Of a stretch of 41,194 bases of DNA, positions 1 to 15,383 are shown in pieces. This DNA is from Lachnospiraceae bacterium (GTDB lineage: Bacteria; Bacillota; Clostridia; Lachnospirales; Lachnospiraceae). The stretch's first letter is position 1. Every line of letters starts with the position of its first letter. Under the pieces are notes generated by a model that saw only the letters and a list, made by a program, of their open reading frames with translations, was not told where the DNA came from and made no database searches. The DNA lies in NCBI GenBank assembly GCA_017424235.1, contig JAFPAQ010000042.1:1-41194 (forward strand), read 5' to 3'. The translations under genes were made by a program, and so were the position numbers.

Positions 1-134
1 ATATAAAATGGGAAAACCATAAGCTTACAGAGCTTAAAGTAAAGGCAGCTTCTGATTACAAAGGTAAATTTATCTATCAGGGAAAGGAAATAAATGATAA
101 GGTGACCTACATTACAGAAATTAGTGCACATTAG
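1..134 (+). CDS. C-terminal end of an unidentified protein (5' end outside window)
   Basis: The frame is open from the window edge and ends at TAG 132-134, giving 43 residues. The visible tail is hydrophilic and Lys-rich and ends in TYITEISAH. It has no recognisable motif, so no function is assigned. A perfect hairpin starts 6 bases after the stop and could end its transcript, although no T-run follows. It may belong to the same decayed accessory cluster as the fragments at 254-709. The absence of a start is due to the window edge. Confidence 0.5.
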   Translation, partial: IKWENHKLTELKVKAASDYKGKFIYQGKEINDKVTYITEISAH

Positions 135-140
135 AATTTC

Positions 141-182
141 TGGTGAACTACCCATTGGCTTTAGACAATGGGTAGTTCACCA
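141..182. repeat. 17-bp perfect inverted repeat (hairpin)
   Basis: TGGTGAACTACCCATTG (141-157) is followed by an 8-base loop and its exact complement (166-182). There is no T-tract after it, so a classical terminator is not shown. It could be a bidirectional transcript end or the end hairpin of a lost IS200/IS605-type element. The second idea is inference, because no transposase is next to it. Confidence 0.7.
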
Positions 183-253
183 GGATATAGAAAGTCAAGG
201 TTGACATAATGCAGATATTATGTATACAATTATTATATTGCTTAGGTAGTTAA

Positions 254-373
254 AACTCGCAAAATATTATAATTAACGGTAAGACTCTTAGTGATCAGTA
301 TGGCGTGGATAGATTGTTTGAAGATTTAAAGGGGTTAAGTACAGAAGAATATTATGGAGGTTGTGTAGTATGA
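254..373 (+). pseudogene. 3' remnant of a small gene, coupled to the next gene by ATGA overlap
   Basis: This frame is open from after TAA 251-253 to TGA 371-373. It reads as 39 residues of ordinary-looking protein (including DQYGVDRLFEDLKGLSTEEY) with no ATG, GTG or TTG start preceded by a ribosome site. Its stop overlaps the ATG at 370 (ATGA), the usual sign of a translationally coupled gene pair. That argues this was once a real upstream gene whose 5' part has been lost. The product is not recognised. Confidence 0.4.
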
Positions 374-609
374 AGTGGATTTTAATTATTTTAGTAGTTT
401 GGCTGATTTTGGCAGCTATATGTGCAGGTGTTTTTCCATTTGCACTCATGGATATCTTTGCCGGTACGACAGGATGCGGTTCGAATTGGGGACCAATATT
501 AGGAATGATTTGTAGTGTGATTTTGTCTCCGCTTTATATTGTTGTGAAGCTTGTCAAAAAAATAATAAGTGCGATTTCTAAGATTGGCAGAGGGAGCGCT
601 AAAGAGTGA
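370..609 (+). CDS. Small membrane protein, two transmembrane segments (hypothetical)
   Basis: The product is 79 residues. I start it at ATG 370 rather than TTG 361, because GGAGG at 356-360 lies 9 bases before this ATG. A first hydrophobic helix covers about residues 3-23. A Gly/Cys loop (TTGCGSNWG) follows, then a second helix at about 43-62 and a basic tail with KKIISAISKIGRG. The charge pattern suggests both ends are cytoplasmic. It sits between two broken reading frames, overlapping the upstream one by ATGA and the downstream one by GTGA, so it is the intact middle gene of a decayed operon. Its function is unknown. A toxin, immunity or signalling role would be speculation. Confidence 0.6.
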   Translation: MKWILIILVVWLILAAICAGVFPFALMDIFAGTTGCGSNWGPILGMICSVILSPLYIVVKLVKKIISAISKIGRGSAKE

Positions 610-709
610 ACAGTTACGAATTAAAATAAAAGGTGAACGTATTCACGATGGTACGCCTGTTTGTTACAAATATAAATTTCAGGAAGATGAAATACTTTCG
701 AGTACCTGA
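606..709 (+). pseudogene. Frameshifted small gene following the 79-residue membrane protein
   Basis: A GTG at 606 overlaps the TGA of the previous gene (GTGA) and starts MNSYELK, then meets TAA at 627-629. Reading one base back after the AAAA run gives a continuous IKGERIHDGTPVCYKYKFQE and ends at TGA 707-709, about 34 residues in all. The sense of both halves suggests a small protein broken by a single-base change in a short A-run. Programmed slippage is less likely because no classic slippery heptamer is present. A sequencing error in the A-run cannot be excluded. Confidence 0.35.
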
Positions 710-750
710 CCACAGTAGAGCTAGTAGAAGTAAACAGAAGGAGAAGAAAT

Positions 751-1614
751 ATGAACAATAATAAGTTTGGAATCGCGTCATTGATCGTAGGAGCCCTGTG
801 CTTTGTGACACTCTTTATAGCAGGACCGCTTTTGGGTATCATAGGTCTGGTGCTCGGAGTTGTGGCATTGGCTTATAAAGAGAGAACAAAAGGTCTGGCG
901 ATTGGAGGAATCGTAGTTTCCTTTATCGGTGTTATCGTCGGAACAGTCGTATTGAGCGTAAATATCATGCATATGGCGTATGGTTATCTGGCCGACAGAT
1001 CCGGAGAACGCATGCAGGCTGATGCGGATGACGAAGATGATTCTAAAAAACGAAAAGAGGATGATGATGACATTAGTATCTCCGAAAAGTGGGACATAAA
1101 TGAGACAGATAAAGAGGACAGCAGTGCTTCGGAAAAACGGGGCAGGGATGAGACAGATGAAGAGGATAAGAAGCGTGAATCGGACACAGAGGTGGAAAAT
1201 TTTGCAGGTAAGCAGTTTCAAGGGAGAGACGGCTCTGTGATCTACTTTGAAACAGATGACGAATTTGTGTGGTACCAGTCGGATGAAGACCATGATGACA
1301 ATTATTTTAGCGGGACATATGAGTTCTACTTTGCAGAGGATGCACAGGATTATATTGTAAATGATCTTTCAGATTTGGGTTTAACAAAGGAAGAACTCAC
1401 TGACTATTTCGAGCGGAACAATGACAGTGATTTTTACAGGTTATCGAATTTCTGCTGTATGGTCATGCATAATGATAAAATGAAGATGAATGGAGAAGAC
1501 ATAGCTCTGAGCAGCGAAAGCAGCGACTCCTATTACATGGGATTCTATGCGAACGACTATTTTGACGCATCCAATATGCTGACAGGGAATTATGCAATCT
1601 TCACCCTGAAATAA
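751..1614 (+). CDS. DUF4190-like membrane protein with acidic linker and C-terminal soluble domain
   Basis: The product is 287 residues, with AAGGAGA upstream of ATG 751. Residues 1-75 contain two Gly-rich hydrophobic helices (FGIASLIVGALCF and GLAIGGIVVSFIGVIVG), the pattern of DUF4190 membrane proteins. Residues about 88-150 are a very acidic low-complexity linker with alternating DE and KR runs and an imperfect internal duplication (SEKWDINETDKED then SEKRGRDETDEED). Residues 150-287 look like a small beta-rich outer domain beginning FAGKQFQGRDGSVIYF. This resembles surface proteins in which a membrane hairpin displays a ligand or stress-sensing domain. No catalytic motif is visible. It is separated from the next operon by a hairpin and a promoter. 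Confidence 0.7.
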   Translation: MNNNKFGIASLIVGALCFVTLFIAGPLLGIIGLVLGVVALAYKERTKGLAIGGIVVSFIGVIVGTVVLSVNIMHMAYGYLADRSGERMQADADDEDDSKKRKEDDDDISISEKWDINETDKEDSSASEKRGRDETDEEDKKRESDTEVENFAGKQFQGRDGSVIYFETDDEFVWYQSDEDHDDNYFSGTYEFYFAEDAQDYIVNDLSDLGLTKEELTDYFERNNDSDFYRLSNFCCMVMHNDKMKMNGEDIALSSESSDSYYMGFYANDYFDASNMLTGNYAIFTLK

Positions 1615-1699
1615 ACAGGAGATTTCCAGTCTTTTTCAGGTCCAACTGAAATGCGCGACCAATTCAATCATGACCTGACTCTGATAGAAAAATATGTGT

Positions 1700-1722
1700 T
1701 CAGAGGAATAGCGCACCTCTGA
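1700..1722. repeat. Short hairpin downstream of the DUF4190-like gene
   Basis: TCAGAGG and CCTCTGA can pair around a 9-base loop. No T-run follows. It may stabilise the end of the upstream transcript. Confidence 0.3.
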
Positions 1723-1762
1723 TAAATGCATTATAACATAATTAAAAAAAAGGTGATACCGG

Positions 1763-1807
1763 CAATAGGGGAATTCGTGATACAACCCTATTGATAATAC
1801 TTTTTTT
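1763..1807 (+). terminator. Candidate terminator before the six-gene operon
   Basis: CAATAGGG (1763-1770) pairs with CCCTATTG (1786-1793). A run of seven T follows at 1801-1807. The T-run is displaced 7 bases from the stem, so this is a weak or imperfect intrinsic terminator. It would isolate the operon that starts at about 1843. Confidence 0.4.
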
Positions 1808-1808
1808 G

Positions 1809-1837
1809 TTGCAAAACAATTGTATAAATTGTATAAT
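1809..1837 (+). promoter_or_regulatory. Sigma-70 type promoter for the SPFH operon
   Basis: TTGCAA (1809-1814), a 17-base spacer and TATAAT (1832-1837) are seen directly. The predicted start is near 1843, giving a leader of about 50 bases before AAGGAGG (1884-1890) and ATG 1896. Confidence 0.65.
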
Positions 1838-1895
1838 GTTCAAGATATAGTCATATTTTTAAGATAAAAATTGTACAAAAGATAAGGAGGATAAT

Positions 1896-3080
1896 ATGGC
1901 AATTATTGATGTTGTAGAGTGGAGTCCTACCAGCAATGATGTATTTGCTTACAAATTTCCAAACAATGAATTAAGTACAGCAACACAGCTCATTGTTCAT
2001 GAATCACAGGAGGCTGTGTTTTTTTCAAAAGGTCAGCTGATGGGAAAGTTTGGACCAGGAAAACACAAATTGACTACCGAGAATTTACCCATTTTGCGTA
2101 ATTTGTTTGGAATTCCATTTGGTGGGAAAAATCCTTTTGTGGCGGAGGTATGGTTTGTAAACAAAACAGCGCCTTTGAACATTGATTGGACAACAACAAC
2201 TATGAGATATTTAGATCCCGAATATAATCAAATGGTTCCTTTGTACGCGCAAGGACGTTATGGATTGAGAGTTAAGGATGCAGAACGCTTTTTAGTGAAG
2301 TTGGTTGGAACAATGACCGGTTTTACGGCTGCACAGTTAACAGATCATTTTATGGGAGCATTAATTGCCAAAACCAAATCTTCTATTATGGCATTTATGA
2401 CTGCAAACCACGTGGGGATTAATCAGATTTCCTCTTATCTGGATAATCTTTCAACTTTCATTAGACAGCCTATGGCTGAATTTTGGGAAGAATATGGTTT
2501 TGATCTTCCGGGATTCTATATAACAAGTGTTGACATCGATGTTTCAACACCGGAAGGCAGAAAAATATCAGAAGCGCTGTCAGACCGTTCAGCACAGGCA
2601 ATAGCAGGTTATACCTGGCAGCAGAAGCAGTCATTTGATGTTGCAAATAATGCTATGAGTAATGGTTCTCAAATGGGAATCTTAGGGGTAGCTATGATGA
2701 CAGGTGCTTTCGCAGGAAATGGCGGTGGTATGGGAAACAGTATGTTTCAGCAACCAAATCCGGGACAGTACCAGATGCCAGTGAATCAAGGCTATGGCAT
2801 GAATGCTAATCAGCAGATGATGCCTCATGCAAGAGCAGAAGTATTCTGTTCCAATTGTGGTAAAAAATTCCCTACTACTTCTCAGTTTTGCCCATTTTGT
2901 GGTGATCAGTATAGACCTTGCTCTGTATGTGGTGCCGATAATGGTAAAAATGCAAGTCGTTGCGTGACCTGCGGATCTGTGCTTCAGACAACACAATTTG
3001 CAACAAACGTGTGTAGCAAATGTAATTCTCCTATTCAGCCGGGAACAAAGTTCTGTGCTGTTTGTGGTAATCCATTATAG
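1896..3080 (+). CDS. SPFH-domain (YdjI-like) protein with three C-terminal zinc ribbons
   Basis: The product is 394 residues. AAGGAGG lies 5 bases before ATG. Residues about 25-235 read as an SPFH/Band-7-like domain of the YdjI / 'virion core protein' type (VHESQEAVFFSKGQLMGKFG, then a long amphipathic helix region ending in SDRSAQAIAGYTWQQKQ). A Gly/Met/Gln-rich spacer (about 265-310) leads to three CxxC...CxxC zinc ribbons at 318-394: CSNCG/CPFCG, CSVCG/CVTCG and CSKCN/CAVCG. In Bacillus subtilis, YdjI lies in an operon with PspA and zinc-ribbon membrane proteins and acts at the membrane. That is family knowledge, not proof here. There is no obvious membrane helix, so it probably acts as an oligomeric cytoplasmic platform recruited to the membrane. 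It is the first gene of a tight six-gene operon. Confidence 0.8.
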   Translation: MAIIDVVEWSPTSNDVFAYKFPNNELSTATQLIVHESQEAVFFSKGQLMGKFGPGKHKLTTENLPILRNLFGIPFGGKNPFVAEVWFVNKTAPLNIDWTTTTMRYLDPEYNQMVPLYAQGRYGLRVKDAERFLVKLVGTMTGFTAAQLTDHFMGALIAKTKSSIMAFMTANHVGINQISSYLDNLSTFIRQPMAEFWEEYGFDLPGFYITSVDIDVSTPEGRKISEALSDRSAQAIAGYTWQQKQSFDVANNAMSNGSQMGILGVAMMTGAFAGNGGGMGNSMFQQPNPGQYQMPVNQGYGMNANQQMMPHARAEVFCSNCGKKFPTTSQFCPFCGDQYRPCSVCGADNGKNASRCVTCGSVLQTTQFATNVCSKCNSPIQPGTKFCAVCGNPL

Positions 3081-3091
3081 GAGGTAGAGAT

Positions 3092-3811
3092 ATGAAACAA
3101 CAAAAACCAGTATTCGTCAGAACTATTTTATTTTTTATAGGTCTTTTTATTTTATTGTTATCAGCATGTCTGATTCATTTCCAGGTGACCGCTTTTAACT
3201 GGAGAATGACTTTTGCATACATTTCATTATGCGTGATTTATATTCTTTTCTTTTTACCGGGCTGTTTTGCTTTAAGGGACGATAGAAAGAGTGGAAATAT
3301 CTTTATTGGAGGTGCAGTATATTTTAAGGGATGCGTAGTATATACAATTCTTTCCGCAATTGTCGCAGGCTGTATTTTTGGATTGTTGATTCCATTTGCA
3401 ATCGCTTTTAGCTTGCAAATGGCAGCTTTCTTTATTTTCCTGATCTATTGCTATTTGTCAGGAGTTGCTTCCGATAAAGTTCTGGGAGTGAAGCTGCAGG
3501 AAGAGGCGAAAACCTCTCAATTAAAAGCGTTACAGGCTGGAACAGCAAGTATGCTAATTCGAGTAAATCAGTCGGCTAAGTGCGATGAAGAGATGAAAAA
3601 GAGTGTTCGTAAATTGTCGGAAGATTTACGTTATTTATCTCCATCCAACACATCAAGATGTGCTGAACTGGAAGGTTGTATGCTGGATATTGTAAATACG
3701 GTTTGCAGAGCGGGTTATTTAGATGAAAAAAGTCTTGCTTCACAGGATGAGTTGAAGAAGATGATAGATGAATTAACAATGCTGTACGAGCAGAGAAAAT
3801 TAATGTATTAA
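3092..3811 (+). CDS. Membrane protein with cytoplasmic helical C-terminal domain (hypothetical)
   Basis: The product is 239 residues and starts 11 bases after the SPFH gene, with TAGGAGGTAG just upstream of ATG. Hydrophobic segments lie at about 10-30, 38-60 and 87-130 (probably two close helices), giving about four transmembrane segments. The last 100 residues are helical and charged, with a conserved-looking SEDLRYLSPSN segment followed by a Cys-containing helix and a final helix ending YEQRKLMY. No enzyme motif is visible. Its position suggests it is the membrane anchor or partner of the SPFH protein, as membrane partners are in ydjFGHI-type operons (inference). I do not recognise the family with confidence. 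Confidence 0.7.
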   Translation: MKQQKPVFVRTILFFIGLFILLLSACLIHFQVTAFNWRMTFAYISLCVIYILFFLPGCFALRDDRKSGNIFIGGAVYFKGCVVYTILSAIVAGCIFGLLIPFAIAFSLQMAAFFIFLIYCYLSGVASDKVLGVKLQEEAKTSQLKALQAGTASMLIRVNQSAKCDEEMKKSVRKLSEDLRYLSPSNTSRCAELEGCMLDIVNTVCRAGYLDEKSLASQDELKKMIDELTMLYEQRKLMY

Positions 3812-3824
3812 GGTTGGTGGAAGA

Positions 3825-5768
3825 ATGACAGGAAAAGTATTTAGTGATTCGGCAAATATTTATCAGGATCAGGCAAAAATATTGTTTGATTATTACAAGT
3901 CAGCAGCAGAGAAAATTGTTGCAGAGGAGATGGAATTAGAGCAGCTGGGCAGCGAGGTAGGGAATGCAATTGCGGCTGATGAGGCTGCACTTAATAAATC
4001 AAAGAAACTGTTCCCAATCGTTATGATTGGAAGTGCGGTTTTGTTGCTTTTGTTTTTTGTACTGCCATTATTAGTGCTGATACCAATTGCAGGTTTTGTG
4101 TATGGTGTCAAACAATTTTTAGATTCAAAAAAGTATGCACAGCAGATTGAAAATGGAAAAATACAATTGCAGCAATTACAGCAGAGCTATCAGCAGATCC
4201 GTAGAGATTACTCTGTTGATAAAATTGGTGTAACTTATGTTCCAGTGGCAACCAGAATGCCTTTCGAGGAAAAAAGTTTCCTGATTGACCATACAAACTC
4301 AGTACCGGAAACAGATTTCCAACTGAATGTATTACATCAGCCTGAGGAATTCCAAAATTCTATGACAAACTTGAAAAAATCCATGGAAAACATTCCAATT
4401 GTAGAGACAAATGAAAAATCTGAGAGCATCAATACTTCAGATTATTCAGTTTCTGTTCAAAATGTTACGCTGCATGATTATGTTGGTAACATTGACAGGC
4501 AGGTTCGTAACATTAATTATCTGTTAAATGATAGTGAGAATGTGTCAGTCAGCATGCCTGTGATTATGCCAGGTAGTGAACGCGCCAATATTATTCAGGA
4601 ATACGCAACAGATGAGATTGGAAATCATCCAGTTGTTTGTGCTTTTAATGTAGATTTTACAAGAGAGATGGAACAGTTTTCATCTTTGAATAGTTTGAAA
4701 AATCAGATGAGTGGTGGGGAAGATAGCGACAGCACGGAATACATGACTAAGACTATGGCACAAATGGCTGAATCAGTACAGCTTTTGTCAAAAACCAAAA
4801 ATGCCGGTTCTAGTAAATTGATTCAATATACTTCGGATATTTTTTCAACAGTTTTAAAAGCAGGATACACGCAGTATTCACCAAAGCTTGAAGCGGAGGA
4901 AATCGAAAAAGTACGTTCTACAGATTTTGATTATCAGTCTTCTGTAAATGGATACACTCCATTTACCATGAAAAAGAGTTCGCGTGTAAAATATGAAATG
5001 TTCTCAGGGAACTGGATAGCAGAAGACGGTTCAACAACAACAATGCCATTTGGGATGCATCAGATTGATGAAGAAATTCTGGTTCCTGTCATTACTTCAT
5101 TAATGGAAGAAAATCGTATTGAACGTTTAAAGATTTACAATAATATTGAGGATCAAAAGCGAGAATATTTGGATAAATGGTCTTCCGAAATTGGTAATTA
5201 TTTTAGGGATAACCGTAAATCAGCAGATGAGTTGATTACACATATGCGAGAGACTTATGCAGATTATGTTAGTGCGTCGAATATGTATCAGTCATTAAGT
5301 GATACAACTGGTTTGATGAAATCAACCCAAAACGTCGATGATGCAGAAGTGAAAGAAATAGACCAGCAGGCAGAAATGATTGCCGGATTTGAATTACAGG
5401 CAAAGCAGTGTAATGAACAGCAGGAACGTTTTGCAGAGTTCATGGATAGAATACAGGAAAGTATTGGAGATACTACAAATGATTTTGCCCACATCGAATA
5501 TTATGAAGGTTCGTTAAGAGATATTGCTTCTCATGAAACTGCCGTTGCAATGGCAAATCTTCATGAGCTGGATCAGAGAAGAAAACAGTTAGTTCAGGTT
5601 AGCCCATATCTGGCTGCTTACGGTGAACTTCCACCTGAACCAAAGACAAGTCCTGAAATGATCGAGCATGTACAGATTGATTTAGAGCGCGAAGTTTCAG
5701 AAAAATTGGAAGAAATTGAAACTAGAAAACTGAATCTGTCTGATTCAAATACAGAAAGTGAAAGGTGA
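3825..5768 (+). CDS. Large membrane-hairpin coiled-coil protein (hypothetical)
   Basis: The product is 647 residues, starting 13 bases after the previous gene. An N-terminal helical segment (1-60) leads into a hydrophobic hairpin at 62-97 (FPIVMIGSAVLLLLFFVLPL and more). A Gln-rich coiled coil (KIQLQQLQQSYQQIRRDY, about 112-129) follows. The middle region (about 220-390) is mixed and contains NIDRQVRNINYLLNDSENVS. The final 220 residues are again strongly helical (KEIDQQAEMIAGFELQAKQC; LEREVSEKLEEIETRKLNL). No nucleotide-binding or catalytic motif is seen. The shape, a short membrane hairpin flanked by coiled coils, fits a scaffold or tether that links the membrane to cytoplasmic partners. 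Its stop overlaps the region of the next ribosome site, so the genes are coupled. Confidence 0.7.
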   Translation: MTGKVFSDSANIYQDQAKILFDYYKSAAEKIVAEEMELEQLGSEVGNAIAADEAALNKSKKLFPIVMIGSAVLLLLFFVLPLLVLIPIAGFVYGVKQFLDSKKYAQQIENGKIQLQQLQQSYQQIRRDYSVDKIGVTYVPVATRMPFEEKSFLIDHTNSVPETDFQLNVLHQPEEFQNSMTNLKKSMENIPIVETNEKSESINTSDYSVSVQNVTLHDYVGNIDRQVRNINYLLNDSENVSVSMPVIMPGSERANIIQEYATDEIGNHPVVCAFNVDFTREMEQFSSLNSLKNQMSGGEDSDSTEYMTKTMAQMAESVQLLSKTKNAGSSKLIQYTSDIFSTVLKAGYTQYSPKLEAEEIEKVRSTDFDYQSSVNGYTPFTMKKSSRVKYEMFSGNWIAEDGSTTTMPFGMHQIDEEILVPVITSLMEENRIERLKIYNNIEDQKREYLDKWSSEIGNYFRDNRKSADELITHMRETYADYVSASNMYQSLSDTTGLMKSTQNVDDAEVKEIDQQAEMIAGFELQAKQCNEQQERFAEFMDRIQESIGDTTNDFAHIEYYEGSLRDIASHETAVAMANLHELDQRRKQLVQVSPYLAAYGELPPEPKTSPEMIEHVQIDLEREVSEKLEEIETRKLNLSDSNTESER

Positions 5769-5773
5769 TTTCT

Positions 5774-6682
5774 ATGGCAACATTTGATTGTATAGTTGAT
5801 ACAACGCCGATGGCGAATTCAGTTGATACAGTTTCAAAACATGTTTTAGGGACAACAGCAGCAGTAACAGCGATGCAGGCAGCTGTAATCAAAACGGAGA
5901 TGGATTCTGCTGATACCATTTGTAAAAATGTAGACCGTGGATTCTATAGCTTAATTCGGTCGCAGCTGAGCATGAAACTGGCAAAGCATTATACGGAGAT
6001 GAATGCAAAACTGGTTTTGCTGTTAGAGTATTCTAAGTCATTAGGAAAGATTCAGAACAGAATGGAAGCCGATGTAAATCGACTGAGAAGAGAGTATTAT
6101 AAAACCTTTCATGGTCTGGATAAAGCATTAGAGAACAGAGTTTATCAATTGGATAAAAATGCAATGATTTTAGCTGATTTGAGAAACAAACTTCTGAGAC
6201 AACATGTTGTTAAGGATATTGCAAAGGTGGTTTGTACAGACTTGGAAGCCACCAGAGTTTCTCAGTTATCATTAACAGCACATATGAAAACAAAAACAAG
6301 TGCAACGTTAAATGCCATCGAAAAAAATGTATGTGCTAATCAAAAGTTCCGTGTACAGATTAAGGAGATTTTGGGTTCAAAGAAATTGAAAGATTCGGCA
6401 CAGGAATACGTACCTGTTATTTATCGCAAAGCACAAAGTACAGCGGTGGCTGGAACAGAAGTTGTTAACTTATATTTTCCGGATTTTATGGAAAAAAATA
6501 TGAAAGACCAGATTGAAACAAGCATGATGAATCAGATTGAACAGTTAGTAGAGGGAGAAGTTTCCGCGGAAGAGAAAGCAGAGATTGCCAAAGAGTTTCA
6601 AAAACTTATGTCGGAATCTTCTGTGACTCAAAGAGTAGCACAAACAATGATGAAATTATTTGGAAATGAGGTACGCCCATGA
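5774..6682 (+). CDS. Helical protein, paralogue of the next gene (hypothetical)
   Basis: The product is 302 residues. I choose ATG 5774 over GTG 5765, because GAAAGG at 5760-5765 is correctly spaced for the ATG. The protein is almost all helical with no membrane segment. Residues 56-135 align without gaps to residues 94-173 of the next protein, with 29 identities in 80 positions, including GFY, ADVNRLR/SDVERLR, LD and LA. A start segment containing VDTTPMANSV also matches VNTDKFDETV of the neighbour. It overlaps the next gene by ATGA, so the pair is translationally coupled and may form a hetero-oligomer (inference). The family is not recognised. PspA-like function was considered, but no PspA signature is seen. 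Confidence 0.7.
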   Translation: MATFDCIVDTTPMANSVDTVSKHVLGTTAAVTAMQAAVIKTEMDSADTICKNVDRGFYSLIRSQLSMKLAKHYTEMNAKLVLLLEYSKSLGKIQNRMEADVNRLRREYYKTFHGLDKALENRVYQLDKNAMILADLRNKLLRQHVVKDIAKVVCTDLEATRVSQLSLTAHMKTKTSATLNAIEKNVCANQKFRVQIKEILGSKKLKDSAQEYVPVIYRKAQSTAVAGTEVVNLYFPDFMEKNMKDQIETSMMNQIEQLVEGEVSAEEKAEIAKEFQKLMSESSVTQRVAQTMMKLFGNEVRP

Positions 6683-7737
6683 GCTATAGTCAATCTTTTC
6701 AAAATAGCATAACCGTCTCAGGAGATGTTAGAGTTTCTTATCCGGCAAGTGAACATGGTGGTACGGTGACAGCGCACTATAGTGAGGTTGTCCCAATCAA
6801 CATAAATCTGCATGTAAACACTGATAAGTTTGATGAGACCGTTGTCAAAACCAATCATTGTGTAGATGGATTGACTGGCGCAGTTGCGGCAATGGATGCA
6901 GCACAGTGTAAGGTAATCAAGGACGGTTCGAAGAAAATATCCGAAAGTTTGGTGAACGGGTTCTATCAGTATATTAATTCAGAAATGTCTGCTCAAAAAA
7001 GTGAAAACTTTAGTATGGTTAGTTCCAAATTTGCTTTACTTATGGAATTTACAAAGGATATGATCTCGAAACACGAACGCATGAGTTCAGATGTTGAGCG
7101 ACTCCGTGGCCATTTTGGAAGGTTGTTTGCAGATATGGATAAAGATTTAGAAAGACGTATTCATAAACTGGATGAACCTGCATTTCACCTTGCCAATCAG
7201 GTGAGAACTGACTTGATAGAAGTTCCTTATAAAGTAGCAGCAAGCTTTGGTTTAGAGCAGATTAGCGAAAATAATCGTTCTCAGAATTTGATTGCAAGTG
7301 CAAGACTTAAGAAAAAAATGTCTGATGCGATGGACACAATTTCTGGATTAGTTGTGAAAAATTTGGATTATCAGAAGGCAGTGAAACAGATTCTTTTCCA
7401 ACAAAAATGTGAAGAGCCTTGCGTGGAATACTTACCAGCTATTGTTTGTGAAAAGAAGAATTTGACAAATGATGGACAAATTAGTAAAGAAGTTTATGTA
7501 GCAGAAGTAAATGGCCAGGAACAGATCATTGCAACGGTGCAAAACTGTTATGGTGATAATAATGCTGGAGAATGGAAAAACATGTCTCAGGAAGATTTAA
7601 AGTTATTGAATCAGGCCTTTAACAATATATTAGAGAATGGTTTTACAGAACAACAACATAATGATTCAAAAAATGATCGTGTGTGTAAAGAAATCATGCG
7701 AATGTGGAACAGCCATCAAACAATGTTGAAATTGTAA
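6679..7737 (+). CDS. Helical protein with beta-rich N-terminal extension, paralogue of the previous gene (hypothetical)
   Basis: The product is 352 residues, with ATG 6679 overlapping the previous stop. Residues 1-50 form an extra beta-like segment (ITVSGDVRVSYPASEHGG; VVPININLHV) missing from the paralogue. Residues 55-180 are the shared helical core (GFYQYINSEMS, SSDVERLR, HKLDEPAFHLAN). The C-terminal 100 residues contain a second shared module around CVEYLPAIV (EYVPVIY in the paralogue). There is no signal peptide or membrane helix. Pairing of a full and a shortened version of one fold in an overlapping gene pair suggests two non-equivalent subunits of one complex. The function is unknown. 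Confidence 0.7.
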   Translation: MSYSQSFQNSITVSGDVRVSYPASEHGGTVTAHYSEVVPININLHVNTDKFDETVVKTNHCVDGLTGAVAAMDAAQCKVIKDGSKKISESLVNGFYQYINSEMSAQKSENFSMVSSKFALLMEFTKDMISKHERMSSDVERLRGHFGRLFADMDKDLERRIHKLDEPAFHLANQVRTDLIEVPYKVAASFGLEQISENNRSQNLIASARLKKKMSDAMDTISGLVVKNLDYQKAVKQILFQQKCEEPCVEYLPAIVCEKKNLTNDGQISKEVYVAEVNGQEQIIATVQNCYGDNNAGEWKNMSQEDLKLLNQAFNNILENGFTEQQHNDSKNDRVCKEIMRMWNSHQTMLKL

Positions 7738-7758
7738 AAAGGAGTATAAGATACAATT

Positions 7759-8736
7759 ATGATAGAATTAGAAGAAATTCGAATTAGCGATAATGAGATT
7801 CACTTGAAAAACAATCTGGTGAAATCTGCAATTTTACCTCAAAATTCAAAAGAACTAAATCGCAACTTGAAAATTCAAGGTCAGGTAATTGTTGAAGGTG
7901 CGGTTTATGGCAATAGTATTGATATTGGTGAAGGTGAAGTAACCTTTGAAAGCGCTGTTTTTGCAAATTCTGAGTTACATATCGAAAATGATATTAAAGG
8001 TGAAGTGTTTTTTAAAAAGGCTGTGGCTAGTACAGATACCATTGCTGCATTTTTATCATCCGGAAGAGCAATTTTTGGATCTGATGTGAACTCAAAAGTT
8101 GTTAAACTAAAGAATTGCTTTATCAGTGGAAGTATTTTTGCACAGGAAGTAAACTTGGAAAACTGCATTGTGTTAGGCGGAGTTTTTGCGACCAAGCAGC
8201 TAAATATGACAAGCTGTATCACAGGAACCTTTCACTGTCCTTCTGTAGAGATTGCAGGAATTAATTATATTCTGTATCCGGCATGCTTTTCAGTTGAACC
8301 GATGAGCGCTCTTCCAAAGTCAGAATTATACAATTTGTCGCTTGCACATTTGGGTGCACTTTTCAAAGGTGAGAAAGAAGATGCTAATACTGGAAAAATA
8401 AAAATTGATATTGAATACGACAGGCAATATACGTCTCTTGTTGGTGAGGAAGATTCCAGAACTGTTATCAATAGTTATTCTGTATCGGGGAAGATTCTTG
8501 CCACAGATATGATTGATTTGGATAAATTGGAAAATCACTTTTTGATTAAGGCTGGTGCACTGGGCTCACAGATTTTGAAGGTATATAGTTTGACAAAAGA
8601 AGATGGAACAAAATCAGATGAATTAACCATCCAGAACATTGCAGATTTCTTTTTCAAGATTTTAAGTGGAGAAATCAGTGTTCAGGAATTATCTGGAGAG
8701 ATTAGCTATGCAGAATTAAAAAGAAATCTAATGTAA
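7759..8736 (+). CDS. Bactofilin-like beta-helix protein (polymer-forming type, hypothetical)
   Basis: The product is 325 residues. AAAGGAG lies 14 bases before ATG, longer than usual, so expression may depend on coupling to upstream genes. Residues 30-170 show the short repeating strands of a right-handed beta-helix (LKIQGQVIVEGAVYGNSIDI; ELHIENDIKGEVFFKKAV; VVKLKNCFISGSIFA; VNLENCIVLGGVFA), as in bactofilins and polymer-forming cytoskeletal proteins. The C-terminal 150 residues are mixed and unassigned. Bactofilins polymerise without nucleotide on membranes. That role here is inferred from the fold pattern only. It is the last gene of the SPFH operon, with a terminator 100 bases downstream. 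Confidence 0.65.
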   Translation: MIELEEIRISDNEIHLKNNLVKSAILPQNSKELNRNLKIQGQVIVEGAVYGNSIDIGEGEVTFESAVFANSELHIENDIKGEVFFKKAVASTDTIAAFLSSGRAIFGSDVNSKVVKLKNCFISGSIFAQEVNLENCIVLGGVFATKQLNMTSCITGTFHCPSVEIAGINYILYPACFSVEPMSALPKSELYNLSLAHLGALFKGEKEDANTGKIKIDIEYDRQYTSLVGEEDSRTVINSYSVSGKILATDMIDLDKLENHFLIKAGALGSQILKVYSLTKEDGTKSDELTIQNIADFFFKILSGEISVQELSGEISYAELKRNLM

Positions 8737-8835
8737 AATTATTTCTGATGAACCATATGCAGGGAAAATTTGGATGAGTATTCAGTTATGTTAGGGTTGT
8801 TTCATGAATGAAAATTGAATAAGTAAGAAGTACCA

Positions 8836-8891
8836 GAAAAGACTGGAAAATCTGCAGTTATACAAAATTGCAGATTTGCTGGTCTTTTTCC
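8836..8891 (+). terminator. Terminator of the six-gene operon
   Basis: A long imperfect stem forms between AAAAGACTGGAAAATCTGCA (8837-8856) and TGCAGATTTGCTGGTCTTTT (8869-8888), and the second arm runs into T residues. It lies about 100 bases after the last stop of the operon. Confidence 0.7.
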
Positions 8892-8945
8892 TTGTGTAGA
8901 GGTATATTATACCCCCTAAAATCCCAGTGGTGTCAGGCACAATAA

Positions 8946-9120
8946 ATAATAGAATATTTGAACCCAAGATTATCCACAGAAGAAAACTGTATTGCATTAA
9001 GTCATGCCAGACGCTTTGGTAAGTCTCATGCAGCCGGAATGATAGATGACTATTATAGTCGTGGCTGTGACTCTTAATCGCTGTTTGATGATACAAGAAT
9101 TGCCAAAGTCCTGTTTGATT
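8946..9120 (+). pseudogene. Remnant of a predicted AAA-ATPase / PD-(D/E)XK family protein
   Basis: The frame beginning GAA TAT TTG encodes EYLNPRLSTEENCIALSHAR, then RRFGKSHAAGMIDDYYSRGC, then a TAA at 9075 and SLFDDTRIA. This is the P-loop region of the predicted AAA-ATPase family common in gut Clostridia, which normally reads RPRRFGKS..A.ML..YYS.GCDS..LF. There is no start, the RPRRFGK Pro is lost, a stop interrupts it and the body of the gene is absent. The 387-base gap 8737-9123 therefore holds a terminator plus this fragment. Confidence 0.6.
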
Positions 9121-9123
9121 GGC

Positions 9124-9690
9124 TTAGATGTTCAGTAACTCGGTAATATCAGAGAAGTTGATAAACAAATCGTCATAAATATTGACTTTGATTGTGGAAT
9201 CAAAGGAGTAATGGATATCAAGCATATTTCCTTCAAAATAATTGACAATCACAGTCTTGCGGCGGGAATCAACAATCCAATATTCACGTACTCCGGCATT
9301 TTTGTAGTAGTATAGCTTGCGGATATAGTCGTCTGCCGGATTATTAGGAGAGACAATTTCGATGATGAAATCAGGAGCACCATTACATCTCTTCCCGTCC
9401 AGCTTATCCTTATCACAAATAACCATTATGTCAGGCTGAACGATTGTAAGAGGTTTATCAGACAGCTTCACGTCAAATGGAGCACTGAATACTTGACATG
9501 AGCCTTTCTTGTTTTTAATATAATTGTAAATGATGTTCGACAGTTCCATAGAGAGTGTCTGGTGAATCTGTGATGGACTGGACATATCATAGACAACCCC
9601 ATCAAAGACTTCTACTCTTTTATCTTCCGGAAGAACTTCATACTGATCCAGAGTGATTATTTCAGGTTGTGGCTGTAATGCTGGTGGCAT
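9124..9690 (-). CDS. Uma2-family (DUF820) PD-(D/E)XK nuclease-like protein
   Basis: The product is 188 residues from ATG 9690. An in-frame GTG at 9699 is less likely because AAAGGAAG sits 8 bases before the ATG. The order of motifs is that of Uma2/DUF820 proteins: an N-terminal ITLDQYEVLPEDKRVEVFDG, a central QPDIMVICDKDKLDG and PDFIIEIVSP, then KLYYYKNAGVREYWIVD. The Asp of QPD and the Glu of IEIVSP are the expected PD-(D/E)XK acidic residues. The family is widespread in accessory DNA and its biological targets are poorly known. It runs tail to tail with the AAA-ATPase remnant and divergently from the amidase. Confidence 0.85.
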   Translation of the reverse strand: MPPALQPQPEIITLDQYEVLPEDKRVEVFDGVVYDMSSPSQIHQTLSMELSNIIYNYIKNKKGSCQVFSAPFDVKLSDKPLTIVQPDIMVICDKDKLDGKRCNGAPDFIIEIVSPNNPADDYIRKLYYYKNAGVREYWIVDSRRKTVIVNYFEGNMLDIHYSFDSTIKVNIYDDLFINFSDITELLNI

Positions 9691-9893
9691 AAAATACACT
9701 TCCTTTCATGGTTATTATACTAAACAAATTCAGGGTATGCACGTATTATAACACGCCGGTTACCCTTCGTCAAAGAAAAGAGGATTACGCCTGCATACTC
9801 ATCATAGGTTCCAGACAGATTCTGCCATGTTCCTGCAGATGCATGATGGAGTTGTCGCAGGAATCACTGGCTGGCAGAACAGCGATCATTCAT

Positions 9894-11051
9894 ATGCCAT
9901 CCTTGTCACAACATGAATTATATGGAACAGGAGAAAATCATAAGTTTGTAATTAATCACATTAGAAAGGCATGGTTTGAATCATTGAAAAATAACAAAAA
10001 AGTATTGCTGTATATTCTTGTAGCTTCAGTATTGATTTTTTGCTGCATATTTCTGGCAGGACAAAATAAGAAACAGATGTTATCAGATTTTGGTCAAAAT
10101 ATCTTGGCAGAAGAGCCACAAAGCATCTTGACAGAAGAGCCACAAAGCATCTTGGCAGAAGAGCCACAAAGCATCTTGACAGAAGAAAGTGTTGCAGCTT
10201 CAGGTAAGGTAGAAAATGAAACTATGGCTGAAGTGGAAAATGAGGTAAAAACTGAGTTGAGTGATACAGATTCCGGTTCGGTTTCTGAAACTGGAGACGC
10301 CAGTCAAACTCCTGAGAAAAAATATACAGTATGTATAGATCCGGGACATTTTCTTGATGAAGAGGATGTGATGGAGGCACAGAATACCTATGGATACAGG
10401 GAAAGTAATGTTTCGCTGAGGCTTGCAATCGCACTTAAGGCAGAGCTTGCCAAATATGGAATAGATGCATATATGACAAGGGAAACAGATCATATAACGC
10501 TTGGAGGATATACAGATAAGGAGCTTGATAAGGGACACATAAGCTTACGAGGTGAGTTTGCAAAGGGAAGTGATCTGTTTGTTTCACTGCATACCAATTC
10601 AAATGGAATAGATGCAAACCAGGTTGGCACCTTCGAACAGCCAAAGGAAATAAATAAGACAATAATCATTGTAAATAAAGTGGCATACAATTCAGACACT
10701 GCCTTAAATATAGCCAATAATATAGGTACAGAGCTCTCAAAGGTAAATTATGACAGCGGGCTTTCATTTACAAATCAGTTTATTGCTGTGACAAGAGATA
10801 CCGCCAGAGAATGGACAGCCGAATATAATGATGGACTTAACCAGGTCGGTACAGTGTGTTACAGATGGGGTACCAAAGGGGATTATTATGGAGTACTTAG
10901 GGGAGCTTCCAATGTAGGAGTACCCGGCATAATCATTGAGCATGGTTTTCATTCGGTAGAGGAATTGAGAAAGCAGGCAATGACACAGGAGCTTGTCGAG
11001 AAGTGGGCAAAGGCGGATGCATATGCAATCGCCAAAGGCTTTGGTCGTTAG
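9894..11051 (+). CDS. Membrane-anchored N-acetylmuramoyl-L-alanine amidase (Amidase_3)
   Basis: The product is 385 residues from ATG 9894; the frame is open back to ATG 9708. Starts at 9708, 9843 and 9894 all lack a clear ribosome site. The first would leave only 17 bases to the divergent Uma2 gene, so I prefer a later one. One helix at about 36-56 anchors the protein. A linker holds an eight-residue tandem repeat (ILAEEPQS/ILTEEPQS). The Amidase_3 domain (about 145-385) has the zinc ligands His152 (DPGH), Glu170 (YRESN) and His233 (SLHTN), and catalytic Glu349 (IIEHGF). It cleaves the bond between muramic acid and the peptide stem, outside the membrane. All key residues are present, so it is probably active. 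Confidence 0.85.
   Translation: MPSLSQHELYGTGENHKFVINHIRKAWFESLKNNKKVLLYILVASVLIFCCIFLAGQNKKQMLSDFGQNILAEEPQSILTEEPQSILAEEPQSILTEESVAASGKVENETMAEVENEVKTELSDTDSGSVSETGDASQTPEKKYTVCIDPGHFLDEEDVMEAQNTYGYRESNVSLRLAIALKAELAKYGIDAYMTRETDHITLGGYTDKELDKGHISLRGEFAKGSDLFVSLHTNSNGIDANQVGTFEQPKEINKTIIIVNKVAYNSDTALNIANNIGTELSKVNYDSGLSFTNQFIAVTRDTAREWTAEYNDGLNQVGTVCYRWGTKGDYYGVLRGASNVGVPGIIIEHGFHSVEELRKQAMTQELVEKWAKADAYAIAKGFGR
10101..10188 (+). repeat. 24-bp tandem repeat inside the amidase linker
   Basis: Three full units and one partial unit of a 24-base repeat alternate gca and aca at one codon, giving ILAEEPQS and ILTEEPQS. The alternation suggests a 48-base unit that itself duplicated. Copy number could vary between strains. 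Confidence 0.85.
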
Positions 11052-11088
11052 GGTAAAGAAGTTATATCCCGAGTTTTGGTCTTAGGCA

Positions 11089-11118
11089 TTGACAAAGCAG
11101 GTTACAGTGGAATAAAAT
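11089..11118 (+). promoter_or_regulatory. Promoter for proS
   Basis: TTGACA (11089-11094), an 18-base spacer and TAAAAT (11113-11118) are present. The transcript would carry a short hairpin GCCGT/ACGGC before the gene. No T-box motif is seen in the leader. Confidence 0.5.
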
Positions 11119-11162
11119 AAATTGATTAAAAGCCGTGTATACGGCAGAATGAGAGGAATAAA

Positions 11163-12602
11163 ATGGCTAACGATAAGAAAATGGTAGAAGCTATTACTTC
11201 TATGGAAGAGGATTTTGCCCAGTGGTATACAGATGTTGTTAAGAAAGCAGAGCTTTGCGATTATTCAAGCGTAAAGGGCTGTATGATAATCAAGCCCGCA
11301 GGATATGCAATATGGGAACAGATACAGAACCAGCTTGATGCAGAGTTTAAAAAGACAGGTGTTGAAAATGTATATATGCCTATGTTCATTCCTGAAAGCC
11401 TTCTTCAGAAGGAAAAGGATCATGTAGAGGGATTTGCTCCCGAAGTAGCATGGGTAACACATGGCGGACTTGAACCACTTACAGAGAGAATGTGTGTAAG
11501 ACCTACATCAGAAACACTTTTCTGTGATTTCTATGCAAATGAGATACAGTCTTACAGAGATCTTCCAAAGGTATATAATCAGTGGTGTTCAGTAGTTCGT
11601 TGGGAAAAGACTACACGTCCATTTTTAAGAAGCCGTGAATTCTTATGGCAGGAGGGACATACAGCACATGCCACAGCACAGGAGGCACAGGAGCGTACAG
11701 TTCAGATGTTAAATGTGTATGCAGACTTCTTAAAGGATGTTCTTGCAATCCCTGTAGTAAAGGGACAAAAGACTGATAAGGAGAAATTTGCAGGTGCAGA
11801 AGCTACATATACAATAGAAGCACTTATGCATGATGGAAAAGCGCTTCAGTCCGGTACAAGCCATAACTTTGGTGATGGTTTTGCAAAGGCATTTGGAATA
11901 CAGTATACAGACAAGGATAATACACTTAAATATGTTCATCAGACTTCATGGGGTATGACTACACGTCTTATCGGTGCTGTTATCATGGTACATGGTGATG
12001 ACTCAGGACTCAAGCTTCCACCTAAGGTAGCACCTGTTCAGATAATGGTAATTCCAATCCAGCAGAAAAAAGAAGGTGTGCTTGATAAGGCATATGAGCT
12101 TCGTGACAGACTTATTGCAAAAGGCTTTAGAGTAAAAGCTGATGATACAGACAAGAGTCCGGGCTGGAAATTCAGTGAGTGCGAGATGAGAGGTGTTCCT
12201 TTCAGAATCGAAATCGGACCAAAGGATATCGAAAATAATAAATGCGTATTTGTAAGACGTGATACAAGAGAAAAGATAGAGGTATCTCTTGATGAGGTGG
12301 AGACAAAGGCAGCAGAGCTTCTTGACACAATTCAGAAGGATATGTATGAGACAGCAAAGGCACACCTTGAAGCACATACCTACAAGGCAGTAAACTGGGA
12401 TGAATTTGCACAGATTATCAACACAAAACCAGGCTTTATTAAGGCTATGTGGTGTGGAGACGTTGAGTGCGAAGACAAGATTAAGGATGAATTTGCAGCA
12501 ACAAGCCGCTGTATGCCATTTGAGCAGGAAAGCCTGAGTGACAAGTGCGTATGCTGTGGTAAACCTGCCAAGAAGATGGTTTACTGGGGAAGAGCATATT
12601 AA
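11163..12602 (+). CDS. proS: Prolyl-tRNA synthetase, short archaeal/eukaryotic-like type
   Basis: The product is 479 residues with GAGAGGAATAAA before ATG. It charges tRNA-Pro with proline in the cytoplasm. Class II motif 1 lies around [20 protein letters not shown], motif 2 around [20 protein letters not shown], and motif 3 around [17 protein letters not shown]. The insertion editing domain of the long bacterial type is absent. The C-terminal domain has the zinc-type cysteines (CGDVEC, then [10 protein letters not shown]) and ends in Tyr, as archaeal-type enzymes do. Length and motifs are complete. It is a single-gene unit with its own promoter and a strong terminator. Confidence 0.97.
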
Positions 12603-12610
12603 TATATTTC

Positions 12611-12652
12611 AAAAAACAAAGGATATCGCCCTGCGATATCCTTTGTTTTTTT
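12611..12652 (+). terminator. Terminator of proS
   Basis: GGATATCGC pairs with GCGATATCC around a 3-base loop. Flanking A and T runs extend the stem and supply the T-tract. Confidence 0.9.
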
Positions 12653-12720
12653 GAAATATAAATAATGTAGACATTTTAAACCTCTAAATAATAAACTTTT
12701 CATAAATAATGGTTATTTTG

Positions 12721-12749
12721 TTTAAAATTTTTTAGAAAAGATATATAAT
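12721..12749 (+). promoter_or_regulatory. Possible promoter for ackA
   Basis: TATAAT is present at 12744-12749 with only a weak TTTAAA at the -35 distance of 17 bases. The 213-base gap before ackA is very AT-rich and shows no other clear signal. Confidence 0.3.
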
Positions 12750-12866
12750 AATTATATATTTGTCAGGATTGTGTAAGTACAAAACACAAAAAAGACCATT
12801 TAATATAAATTTTGGTGTTTCATACACACTGAATAATATAAATAAATATCGGAAAGGGAAACGGAT

Positions 12867-14057
12867 ATGAATATTTTAGTAATCAACTGTGGAAGCTCTT
12901 CACTTAAATATCAGCTTATAAACAGTGAAAGTGAAGAAGTACTTGCAAAAGGACTTTGCGAGAGAATCGGACTTGAGGGAAGTCTTATAACACATCAGGC
13001 AGCAGGAAAAGAGAAGGTAAAAATAGAAACCCCTATGCAAAACCATACACTTGCTATCAAACAGGTCATCAGTGCACTTACAGATGCAGAGCATGGTGTT
13101 ATTGCTTCACTTGACGAGATTGGTGCAGTAGGACATCGTGTTGTACATGGTGGAGAGAAATTTTCAACTTCTGTAATAATAGATGATGAGGTAATGAAAG
13201 CAATTGAGGAGTGTAATGACCTTGCACCGCTTCACAATCCGGCAAACCTCATCGGTATCAATTCCTGCAGGGAGATCATGCCCAATGTGCCAATGGTGGC
13301 AGTATTTGATACAGCCTTCCACCAGACAATGCCAAAGAAGGCTTACTTATATGGACTTCCATATGAGTATTATGAAAAATATAAGGTACGCCGTTATGGA
13401 TTTCATGGTACAAGCCATGATTATGTATCTGCACGTGCAGCAGAGCTTCTTGGAAAGAAAAGAGAGGATCTTAAGATTATTGTGTGCCACCTGGGAAACG
13501 GGGCATCTGTTTCAGCAGTTGACCATGGCAAATGTATAGATACAAGTATGGGACTTACACCGCTTGAAGGACTTATCATGGGTACACGTTCAGGAGATAT
13601 TGACCCTGCAATATGTGATTTTATATGTCAGAAGGAAAATATCACTCCTGCACAGATGAACAATATCCTCAACAAGAAATCAGGAGTGTATGGTATGACA
13701 GGTATCTCAAGTGATTTCAGGGATATTGAAAATGCCGCCTATGCCGGTGATGAAAAAGCAATTGCAGCACTTGATGCCTTCCACTATAAGGTAGCCAAAT
13801 ATATTGGTGCTTATGCAGCAGCAATGAATGGAGTAGATGCAATCGCATTTACAGCAGGCGTTGGTGAAAATAACAAGGTGGGACGTTCGGAAATAGCTAA
13901 TTATCTTGGATATCTTGGCACCAGTATGGATGAAGAAAAGAATAATGTAAGAGGCGAGGACAGGATTATTTCAAAGGATGGAAGCAAGGTTGCAATGCTT
14001 TGTGTTCCAACTAACGAAGAGCTTGCAATCGCACGTCAGACATTAGCACTTTTATAG
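12867..14057 (+). CDS. ackA: Acetate kinase
   Basis: The product is 396 residues, the normal family length, with GGAAAGGGAAACGG before ATG. It transfers phosphate between acetyl phosphate and ADP, yielding ATP in fermentation. Family motifs in order: [10 protein letters not shown] at the N-terminus, [73 protein letters not shown] and FTAGVGENN. All nucleotide- and acetate-binding segments are intact. A phosphotransacetylase gene, the common partner, is not adjacent in this window. It has its own leader and is followed by a hairpin. Confidence 0.97.
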
Positions 14058-14184: not shown

Positions 14185-14203
14185 ATGTGGAAAGGAGGAG
14201 CTT

Positions 14204-15334
14204 ATGAAGTTTAAGACGAAGATGACAATTTTGTTTCTGGTAATAATATTGGTACCTATTTGTTTTTCTACCATTGCTTTTTTTGGAATAGGTTATTATG
14301 AAAATATAGATATGATAAATGAAATCAGAAAAGAAGATGTTATGATAGGAAGCATTGTTAATAAGAGATTCATGCACTCTATAGTATCGTCATCAGTGGT
14401 TATACTTATTGCCACAAGTGCAATCATAACTGCATGGATAAATAAGGACATTTATAAGCCTATACAGCAGTTAAGTGGTGCGATGCAGCATATTGCAATG
14501 GGAGATTATGATTTCAGGCTTCCGGATAAAGGTGACAGTGAGATAGGCATTTTATACAGCAATTATGAGCAAATGCGTTTGAGACTTAAGGAAAGTGCAG
14601 AAGAGGAGCTTTTAAATGAAAAAAAGTCCAAGGAGCTTATAAGCAATATCTCACATGACCTTAAGACCCCTATTACTTCAATAAAAGGATATGTGGAAGG
14701 TATTATGGATGGGGTTGCTGATACACCTGAGAAAATGGATAAGTACATAAAGACCATTTATAATAAGGCAAATGATATGGACAGGCTTATAAATGAGCTT
14801 ACCACTTATTCGGCAATTGATTCAAATAAAATACAGTATCATTTTCATGTTATAAATATTTCTGATTATTTTGCGGACTGCGTGGAGGAGGTCGGTCTGG
14901 ATCTGGAATCCAAAAATATCCAGTTAAACTATACCAATCTGGTATCAGAGGGTACAAGTATAGTGGCAGACCCTGAGCAGCTTAAAAAAGTAATAAATAA
15001 TGTTATCGGAAACAGTGTAAAATATATGGATAATGATAAAGGTGAGATAGATATTCGTATTATTGAAGAAAATGAGTCTGTAAAGATAGAGATAGAGGAT
15101 AATGGAAAAGGTATCCCTGCAAAGGATATAGGAAATATATTTGAGAGATTTTACAGAACTGATGCCTCACGCAATTCAATGAAGGGTGGAAGTGGTATTG
15201 GACTTAGTATAGTAAAGAAAATCATAGAAGATCATGGTGGATATGTGTGGGCTACCAGTAAGGAGGGCGAAGGCACCTGTATTCACTTTGTCATAAGGAA
15301 ATATGTGCAACACCATGATGAGGTAGTTGTTTAA
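14204..15334 (+). CDS. Sensor histidine kinase of a two-component pair
   Basis: The product is 376 residues with AAAGGAGGAGCTT before ATG. Two membrane helices at about 8-29 and 58-78 enclose a very short outer loop of roughly 28 residues, so it probably senses a signal in or near the membrane. A HAMP segment follows (about 79-132). The phosphoacceptor is His151 in SNISHDLKTPITS. The ATP domain has the N box NNVIGNSVKY (265-274), the G1 box DNGKGIP (299-305) and the G2 box GGSGIGLSIV (328-337). It should autophosphorylate and pass the phosphate to the regulator encoded next. The two genes are separated by a degenerate copy of the dispersed palindrome. The stimulus is unknown. Confidence 0.93.
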   Translation: MKFKTKMTILFLVIILVPICFSTIAFFGIGYYENIDMINEIRKEDVMIGSIVNKRFMHSIVSSSVVILIATSAIITAWINKDIYKPIQQLSGAMQHIAMGDYDFRLPDKGDSEIGILYSNYEQMRLRLKESAEEELLNEKKSKELISNISHDLKTPITSIKGYVEGIMDGVADTPEKMDKYIKTIYNKANDMDRLINELTTYSAIDSNKIQYHFHVINISDYFADCVEEVGLDLESKNIQLNYTNLVSEGTSIVADPEQLKKVINNVIGNSVKYMDNDKGEIDIRIIEENESVKIEIEDNGKGIPAKDIGNIFERFYRTDASRNSMKGGSGIGLSIVKKIIEDHGGYVWATSKEGEGTCIHFVIRKYVQHHDEVVV

Positions 15335-15341
15335 TAAATGG

Positions 15342-15383
15342 GCGTACTTTCGGCATCTGTTTAAAAGATTCCGGGAGCATATA
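15342..15383. repeat. Dispersed palindrome, copy 2 (degenerate)
   Basis: The right arm GATTCCGGGAGCAT and loop TCTGTTTAAAA match copy 3 with a few changes, while the left arm GCGTACTTTCGGCATC has diverged more. It separates the kinase and regulator genes. Confidence 0.7.

Follow-up and report, generated by a model that had tools for sequence, protein, structure and literature searches.

A six-gene operon headed by an SPFH zinc-ribbon gene recurs in the same order in four bacterial phyla and may encode a membrane-surface scaffold

In Bacillus subtilis, the SPFH protein YdjI is likely soluble and needs the membrane proteins YdjG and YdjH for its location at the membrane, where its presence is required for the formation of foci by PspA, a relative of ESCRT-III (PMC8581546). 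The operon of this organism has been described as combining Band-7 and zinc-ribbon domains with two membrane proteins, one of which has a TPM domain, in a paper that spells the SPFH protein YdjL (PMC11237479). An archaeal ESCRT locus (Meth_adaptin) also has an SPFH/coiled-coil/zinc-ribbon protein (PMC10936438), and on membranes SPFH proteins assemble into closed rings or domes (PMC10936438; PMC12624060). Here we describe a module of six genes, the first of which encodes an SPFH zinc-ribbon protein, in a 41,194-nucleotide stretch of DNA from a Lachnospiraceae bacterium (assembly GCA_017424235.1, contig JAFPAQ010000042.1; hereafter the window). The six genes recur in an identical order in four phyla. 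By analogy with the B. subtilis system, the module may build a membrane-surface scaffold that works like PspA-YdjGHI from unrelated parts, a reading to which we assign a probability of roughly 0.45.

Six open reading frames (ORFs) on the plus strand fill positions 1896–8736 of the window and are spaced, in order, by 11, 13, 5, −4 and 21 bases, genes 4 and 5 overlapping by 4 bases. An alternative GTG start of gene 4 at position 5765 would convert the third spacing into a 4-base overlap with gene 3 (−4). An earlier reading of this DNA made from the sequence alone (the sequence-only reading) had proposed six tightly packed genes in a single operon, and both the ORF coordinates and the recurring gene order bear this out.

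The distribution of the module was determined with gene 3 of the window and gene 3 of genome G017, which are 61% identical, as seeds in a scan of one genome per species covering 84,980 species. A total of 15 further loci were identified in Bacillota, Spirochaetota, Bacteroidota and Actinomycetota, a lower bound because the scan needs exact short peptides. The hosts included Butyrivibrio and three other Clostridia, two Treponema, four other spirochaetes, one Coriobacteriaceae and four Bacteroidota. All six genes were found in the same order and on the same strand in each of the 15 loci, with gene 1 of L020 truncated by the locus end; one locus, L006, matches the contig of G017 (L005). Searches of whole genomes with a gene 3 profile then yielded matches in 6 of 139 genomes from the order of G262 (4 already known), 7 of 247 from the order of G259 (1 known), 2 of 149 from the class of G256 (1 known) and 10 of 146 from the order of G254 (2 known), the last being a spirochaete order and G254 the Treponema genome that holds L010. 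These profile searches added 17 new loci, 14 of them with all six genes in order; another, L063, is cut within gene 3 by a contig end and covers genes 3–6. Overall, the full six-gene order is present in 30 of 33 loci, the window included (29 others full, 3 partial), a recurrence far beyond chance.

The 146 genomes from the order of G254 were also searched with profiles of genes 4 and 6. The former matched exactly the 10 genomes that carry gene 3, with two matches in each (genes 4 and 5). The latter matched nine of these 10 and two other genomes as contig-start scraps only; G255 has an additional second gene 6 piece at a contig start, and the gene 3 genome that lacks gene 6 is G1252, in agreement with its locus L068. 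The six genes are one evolutionary unit. The sequence-only reading had named co-occurrence of the same six families in distant genomes as its support, and the 29 other six-gene loci provide it; since the whole operon is conserved across phyla, the observation is stronger than was then stated. The gene-neighbourhood conservation across Lachnospiraceae that it proposed to test did not materialize. When 250 Lachnospiraceae genomes were searched with a single sequence, four matches had E ≤ 0.001. Two of these, about 60 residues long at E 6e-4, were set aside, which leaves two clear matches, G017 and the window itself. Within the class of the window the gene 3 profile matched 1 of 341 genomes, and within its genus gene 3 is found in 1 of 38, in both cases the window's own. 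The module is spread across phyla and not across the family Lachnospiraceae. Gut sources are given in the record titles of L009 (roe deer colon), L010 (horse faeces), L013 (buffalo rumen) and L015 (yak reticulum); the species names of L018 and L020 point to poultry droppings, and the other nine titles, as shown, say nothing plain.

Each of the six single-gene trees recovered the Bacteroidota, the spirochaete loci L017–L020 and loci L007–L009 as groups. The placement of the two Treponema and of L012 varied between genes, often with low support, and the two Treponema were paired weakly by gene 1 (support 63) and gene 6 (support 49). In the six-gene tree, a quick tree whose long inner branches could mislead, Treponema L010 grouped with Bacillota, and a single spirochaete clade was rejected (p-AU 0.00028). 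This placement, together with the rejected clade, suggests transfer across phyla, and the module has probably crossed phyla as a whole. The ratio of nonsynonymous to synonymous substitution rates (dN/dS) lay between 0.011 and 0.155 in 19 of 24 gene-pair comparisons of close pairs, the remaining five being saturated; the ratios are rough in 13 of the 19 because dS exceeds 1. From these values, purifying selection seems to act on all six genes.

Gene 1 (1896–3080, plus strand), judged by profile matches, is the only one of the six that belongs to a known family. Its Band_7_1 domain (PF13421) was matched at E 2.7e-37, with 128.9 bits against a curated cut-off of 24, and its zinc-ribbon region was matched by Zn_Ribbon_1 and DZR of Pfam. 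Hydropathy analysis revealed no transmembrane (TM) segment in any of 16 members, and identity to the 15 relatives is 45–72%. With an SPFH domain, C-terminal zinc ribbons and no TM segment, gene 1 encodes a soluble protein of the YdjI type, in keeping with the sequence-only reading. A search of solved structures with gene 1 gave weak matches to the zinc-ribbon region and nothing more. SPFH-like proteins with 25–29% identity to gene 1, a weak likeness, were seen in three phage records from human faeces labelled 'Bacteriophage sp.' (MT838602.1, MT835670.1 and MT839532.1).

Hydropathy analysis also identified gene 2 (3092–3811, plus strand) as a membrane protein, with four hydrophobic segments in the window protein followed by a C-terminal tail without a TM segment. 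Three to five segments were observed across the 16 members, all of which are membrane proteins, as expected from its earlier description as a multi-helix membrane protein. Gene 3 (3825–5768, plus strand; 647 amino acids) is membrane-anchored and largely helical: the window protein has a single long hydrophobic segment, the members have 0–2 segments with a TM-type segment in 13 of 16, and the global hydrophobic period is 3.63. Its identity to the 15 relatives is 30–60%. The sequence-only reading had described gene 3 as a coiled-coil protein with a membrane hairpin; the membrane segment and the helical period stand, and the hairpin is not resolved in the one long segment. In the Bacteroidota genomes of L014 and L015, gene 3 has a long proline- and acid-rich tail.

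Genes 4 (5774–6682) and 5 (6679–7737), both on the plus strand, encode soluble helical proteins that are paralogues, with an N-terminal extension in gene 5. Alignment of the two by hhalign gave a probability of 100 and E 7.2e-53, and their global hydrophobic periods of 3.67 and 3.70 are helical, so that the pair of helical paralogues described from the sequence is confirmed. Among the six window proteins no match to PspA_IM30 of Pfam was found, and identity of genes 4 and 5 with PspA or ESCRT-III was rejected, at the level of hhalign profiles.

The N-terminal half of gene 6 (7759–8736, plus strand) has the repeat rhythm of a beta-helix. Within residues 31–190, a range picked by eye, hydrophobic residues recur with a period of 5.51, a signal equalled by 2 of 2000 shuffles, and a control set of 11 bactofilins of host genomes gave 5.52. 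For the whole protein the period is 5.85 (10 of 2000 shuffles), with an equal peak at 2.35. The C-terminal half, about 130 amino acids, is conserved and lacks the rhythm. Gene 6 of the window gave no Bactofilin (PF04519) match at E ≤ 0.5, and it was not among the matches of a PF04519 search of 11 host genomes, in which the window genome is G000. Weak Pfam matches were obtained in other members: to Bactofilin in 6 of 16 (best E 7.3e-4) and to a left-handed beta-helix (LbH) domain in 7 of 16, and in G257 (L013) a PF04519 match of 20.9 bits, against a cut-off of 27.9, has coordinates that place it on gene 6. With the PF04519 cut-off out of reach and an hhalign probability of 2.3 against host-genome bactofilins, membership in that family was rejected and a likeness at the level of the fold was retained. 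By its periodicity, gene 6 would be a protein of the beta-helix type that is perhaps distantly related to bactofilins, and the label 'bactofilin-like' is best softened to beta-helix protein.

None of genes 2–6 of the window passed a curated cut-off of Pfam or NCBIfam. The best match of the six proteins in PADLOC-DB 2.0.0 had E 0.027, so none could be assigned as a known anti-phage component, and the best PHROGs match of genes 2–6 (E 8e-4, gene 4) was to a family of unknown function. Pfam scans of genes 2–5 across 16 members gave scattered weak matches, in at most 4 of 16 members per family among the families shown, which we take to be chance. Profiles of genes 3–6 searched against solved structures at E ≤ 1 found no convincing relative. 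A described equivalent under another name was found in none of PADLOC, Pfam, NCBIfam and PHROGs; literature searches for SPFH with bactofilin or with 'six-gene operon' did not find the combination, and no equivalent system was among the matches listed. Within these libraries and searches, the proposal that the operon matches no described pathway was upheld.

From the features of the six products, we infer that the products of this self-contained module come together as one multi-protein assembly at the cytosolic side of the membrane. Genes 2 and 3 would anchor the assembly in the membrane, and the SPFH zinc-ribbon protein of gene 1 would assemble into a ring or oligomer that they keep there, much as YdjG and YdjH keep YdjI at the membrane. 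The product of gene 6 may be a beta-helical polymer that makes the patch stiffer or sets its spacing, and those of genes 4 and 5 a paired helical working coat, recruited in place of the PspA of B. subtilis. The likely job of such an assembly would be the stabilizing or repair of membranes, or the clustering of membrane proteins, under envelope stress.

Several observations weigh against this scaffold. Genes 2–6 reached a best hhalign probability of 1.3 against four PspA sequences of host genomes, genes 4 and 5 thus being without a profile likeness to PspA. Relatives of gene 4 gave stray Pfam matches to MuDR (3 of 16, best E 3.5e-6) and CmlA_N (1 of 16, E 6.8e-5), which were taken as chance. 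A search for PspA in the window's genome, which is 90.75% complete, was negative, and 6 of 16 host genomes carry it above cut-off elsewhere; since these six have it, the module is not simply a substitute for PspA. In 3 of the 16 members, gene 3 has no segment that passes the TM threshold. A TPM domain was not listed by Pfam for gene 2 or 3 of the window, nor was one seen among the first 25 of the 44 and 28 families matched by their relatives. Two of the partial loci also depart from a strict six-part machine: L065 holds genes 3–6 without genes 1 and 2, the 1.7 kb before gene 3 being unrelated sequence, and L068 holds genes 1–5 without gene 6.

The flanks of the operon were compared with two congeners. 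A block that we read as ProRS-AckA is kept in both, and blastn of window positions 1–11152 against the two congener stretches (20.0 and 15.1 kb) gave no match. The missing match beside a kept block places the operon in a variable segment. The accessory status claimed for the locus is supported by this result and by the presence of the module in one genome of its genus. The blocks at 11153–14054 and 14196–18308 of the window are rearranged in relative order when compared with the two congeners. The operon has a GC content of 0.373, equal to that of window positions 9701–41194; its base composition is native, and a foreign composition was rejected. No match to genes 3 or 6 was found in plasmid records and none to gene 3 in phage records, where gene 6 was not searched; in IMG/VR, searched with exact short peptides, no copy of gene 3 or 6 was confirmed. 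As the sequence-only reading had noted of flanking gene fragments, a short gene remnant ending ...RRFGKSHAAGMIDDYYSRGCDS lies at about 8946–9074, just before a Uma2-family gene at 9124–9699. We take the remnant to be a piece of an AAA-ATPase-like nuclease family.

A candidate sigma-70-type promoter (TTGCAA-17-TATAAT, 1809–1837, plus strand) scores 10 of 12, the top score in the region 1615–9130, which is common to three sites of which only this one lies upstream of gene 1. A candidate intrinsic terminator (8848–8877, plus strand) comprises a stem of 12 pairs, 3 of them G-C, and a T-rich tail. The region holds 22 promoter-like sites compared with 24.1 in shuffles and 5 terminator-like sites compared with 4.3. 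Because these counts are not above those of shuffles, the one promoter and one terminator proposed from the sequence are present as candidate sites and are plausible rather than shown.

Neighbouring genes were scanned for 98 of 164 flanking ORFs from 30 loci (L062 gave no ORF and L063 was left out); for the window itself, the neighbours were compared with Pfam and NCBIfam alone. Tallies cover the first 25 of 114 PADLOC models and the first 25 of 161 Pfam families. Read by eye, the module stands mostly alone between unrelated genes. No Pfam family in the tally occurs in more than three neighbours, the commonest being GYF_2, which we read as coming from two Bacteroidota loci. The PADLOC models included Cas4, GajB and DRT helicase once each, of which the GajB and DRT-helicase matches may be one protein, and mad2, mad3, mad8 and GlgB twice each. 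An association with a defence island is therefore not supported by the two tallies.

The same tallies bear on an anti-phage or abortive-infection function, in which the SPFH/zinc-ribbon and membrane proteins would sense infection and genes 4 and 5 would disrupt the membrane. Defence genes are often sporadic and transferred, and the module resembles them in occupying 1 of 38 genus genomes and in its probable transfer across phyla; the Cas4, GajB, DRT-helicase and mad models among the neighbours and an integrase piece beside L006 point the same way. However, the best PADLOC match of the six proteins is the one at E 0.027 given above, from a 2023 database that covers systems described up to then, no Pfam family recurs in more than three of the 98 neighbours, and none of the window's six proteins has a recognisable effector domain. 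The phage-defence idea raised earlier as one possible use of the scaffold has gained little support among these mostly unrelated neighbours, and we consider it an unlikely, minor rival.

Some loci do have particular genes attached. In L014 (8191–9652) and L015 (13659–15176), GYF_2-type proteins are encoded on the same strand after gene 6, the first starting 4–13 bases past it, and these were read as a Bacteroidota extension of the operon. A GYF domain could bind the proline- and acid-rich tail of gene 3. Directly downstream of gene 6 in L006 (14966–20610, the same stretch being present in L005), two zinc-ribbon membrane proteins were recognized by eye, and we take the downstream genes to include an FHA-type Ser/Thr kinase and a radical SAM protein. 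Upstream, L006 has the integrase piece, identified by Pfam, and what we assume to be a PASTA-kinase-like giant with InlB-like repeats. Three extra zinc-ribbon-motif genes flank the module in L013 (2471–3133, 10560–10952 and 10972–13278), two of them read by eye and one matched by the gene 1 profile; the gene at 10972–13278 has a relative beside L005. In L068 (11097–12621), where gene 6 is absent after gene 5, the downstream gene was read by eye as Cas4, fitting the one Cas4 match among the neighbours. Positions 1–1730 of L065, where genes 1 and 2 would be, encode a BspA-type repeat protein, also read by eye.

Attached zinc-ribbon, GYF and WG-repeat genes in some loci would also suit an internal compartment or membrane-attached organelle, with an SPFH cage and a beta-helical shell around clients and genes 4 and 5 as adaptors. 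The rings and domes described for SPFH proteins (PMC10936438; PMC12624060), and the polymer-type fold rhythm of gene 6, are compatible with such a structure. No recurrent cargo gene was seen among the 98 neighbours in the families tallied, and we find this explanation improbable. A partly degraded or chance cluster kept by hitchhiking, to which the rarity of the module and its variable chromosomal site might point, is so strongly opposed by the identical order in 30 of 33 loci, the purifying selection on all six genes and the exact co-occurrence of gene 3 with genes 4 and 5 that we give it almost no credence.

The membrane-surface scaffold thus remains the reading that we favour. The persistence of one gene order through four phyla argues strongly, on genetic grounds, for a single machine. 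It links five proteins that match no family of the libraries searched with a sixth, of the SPFH/YdjI kind, that is partly understood. The module accordingly offers a compact system for asking what SPFH zinc-ribbon proteins do, and it bears on whether bacteria have membrane-surface coats besides PspA/ESCRT-III. A bolder proposal is that of a categorically new bacterial machine for membrane remodelling or repair. It would combine an SPFH ring with a polymer of beta-helices and a coat of paired helical proteins that has no relation to PspA/ESCRT-III, and its six genes would move as a portable cassette between phyla of largely animal-gut bacteria; we put this forward tentatively, with the odds somewhat against it.

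The comparison with known systems can be made gene by gene. The module resembles pspA-ydjGHI of B. subtilis in having a TM-free SPFH protein with C-terminal zinc ribbon(s), alongside two membrane proteins and one or more helical partners that are soluble. It differs in its six genes with the SPFH gene first, in the lack of a PspA gene and of a TPM domain listed for the window's membrane partners, in two helical paralogues unrelated to PspA by profile and in the extra beta-helix protein. With the archaeal Meth_adaptin ESCRT loci (PMC10936438), it shares an SPFH protein and zinc ribbon in a multi-gene membrane-remodelling locus, whereas none of the Vps4 ATPase, ESCRT-III and adaptin domains was recognized in the six proteins of the window. 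Gene 6 resembles bactofilins (PF04519) in the 5.5-residue rhythm of its N-terminal half and in the weak family matches of 6 of 16 members, but falls below family level and carries a conserved C-terminal half of about 130 amino acids without that rhythm. Among SPFH proteins, gene 1 is by its profile a member of Band_7_1 (PF13421), and it is the set of partners encoded with it that differs.

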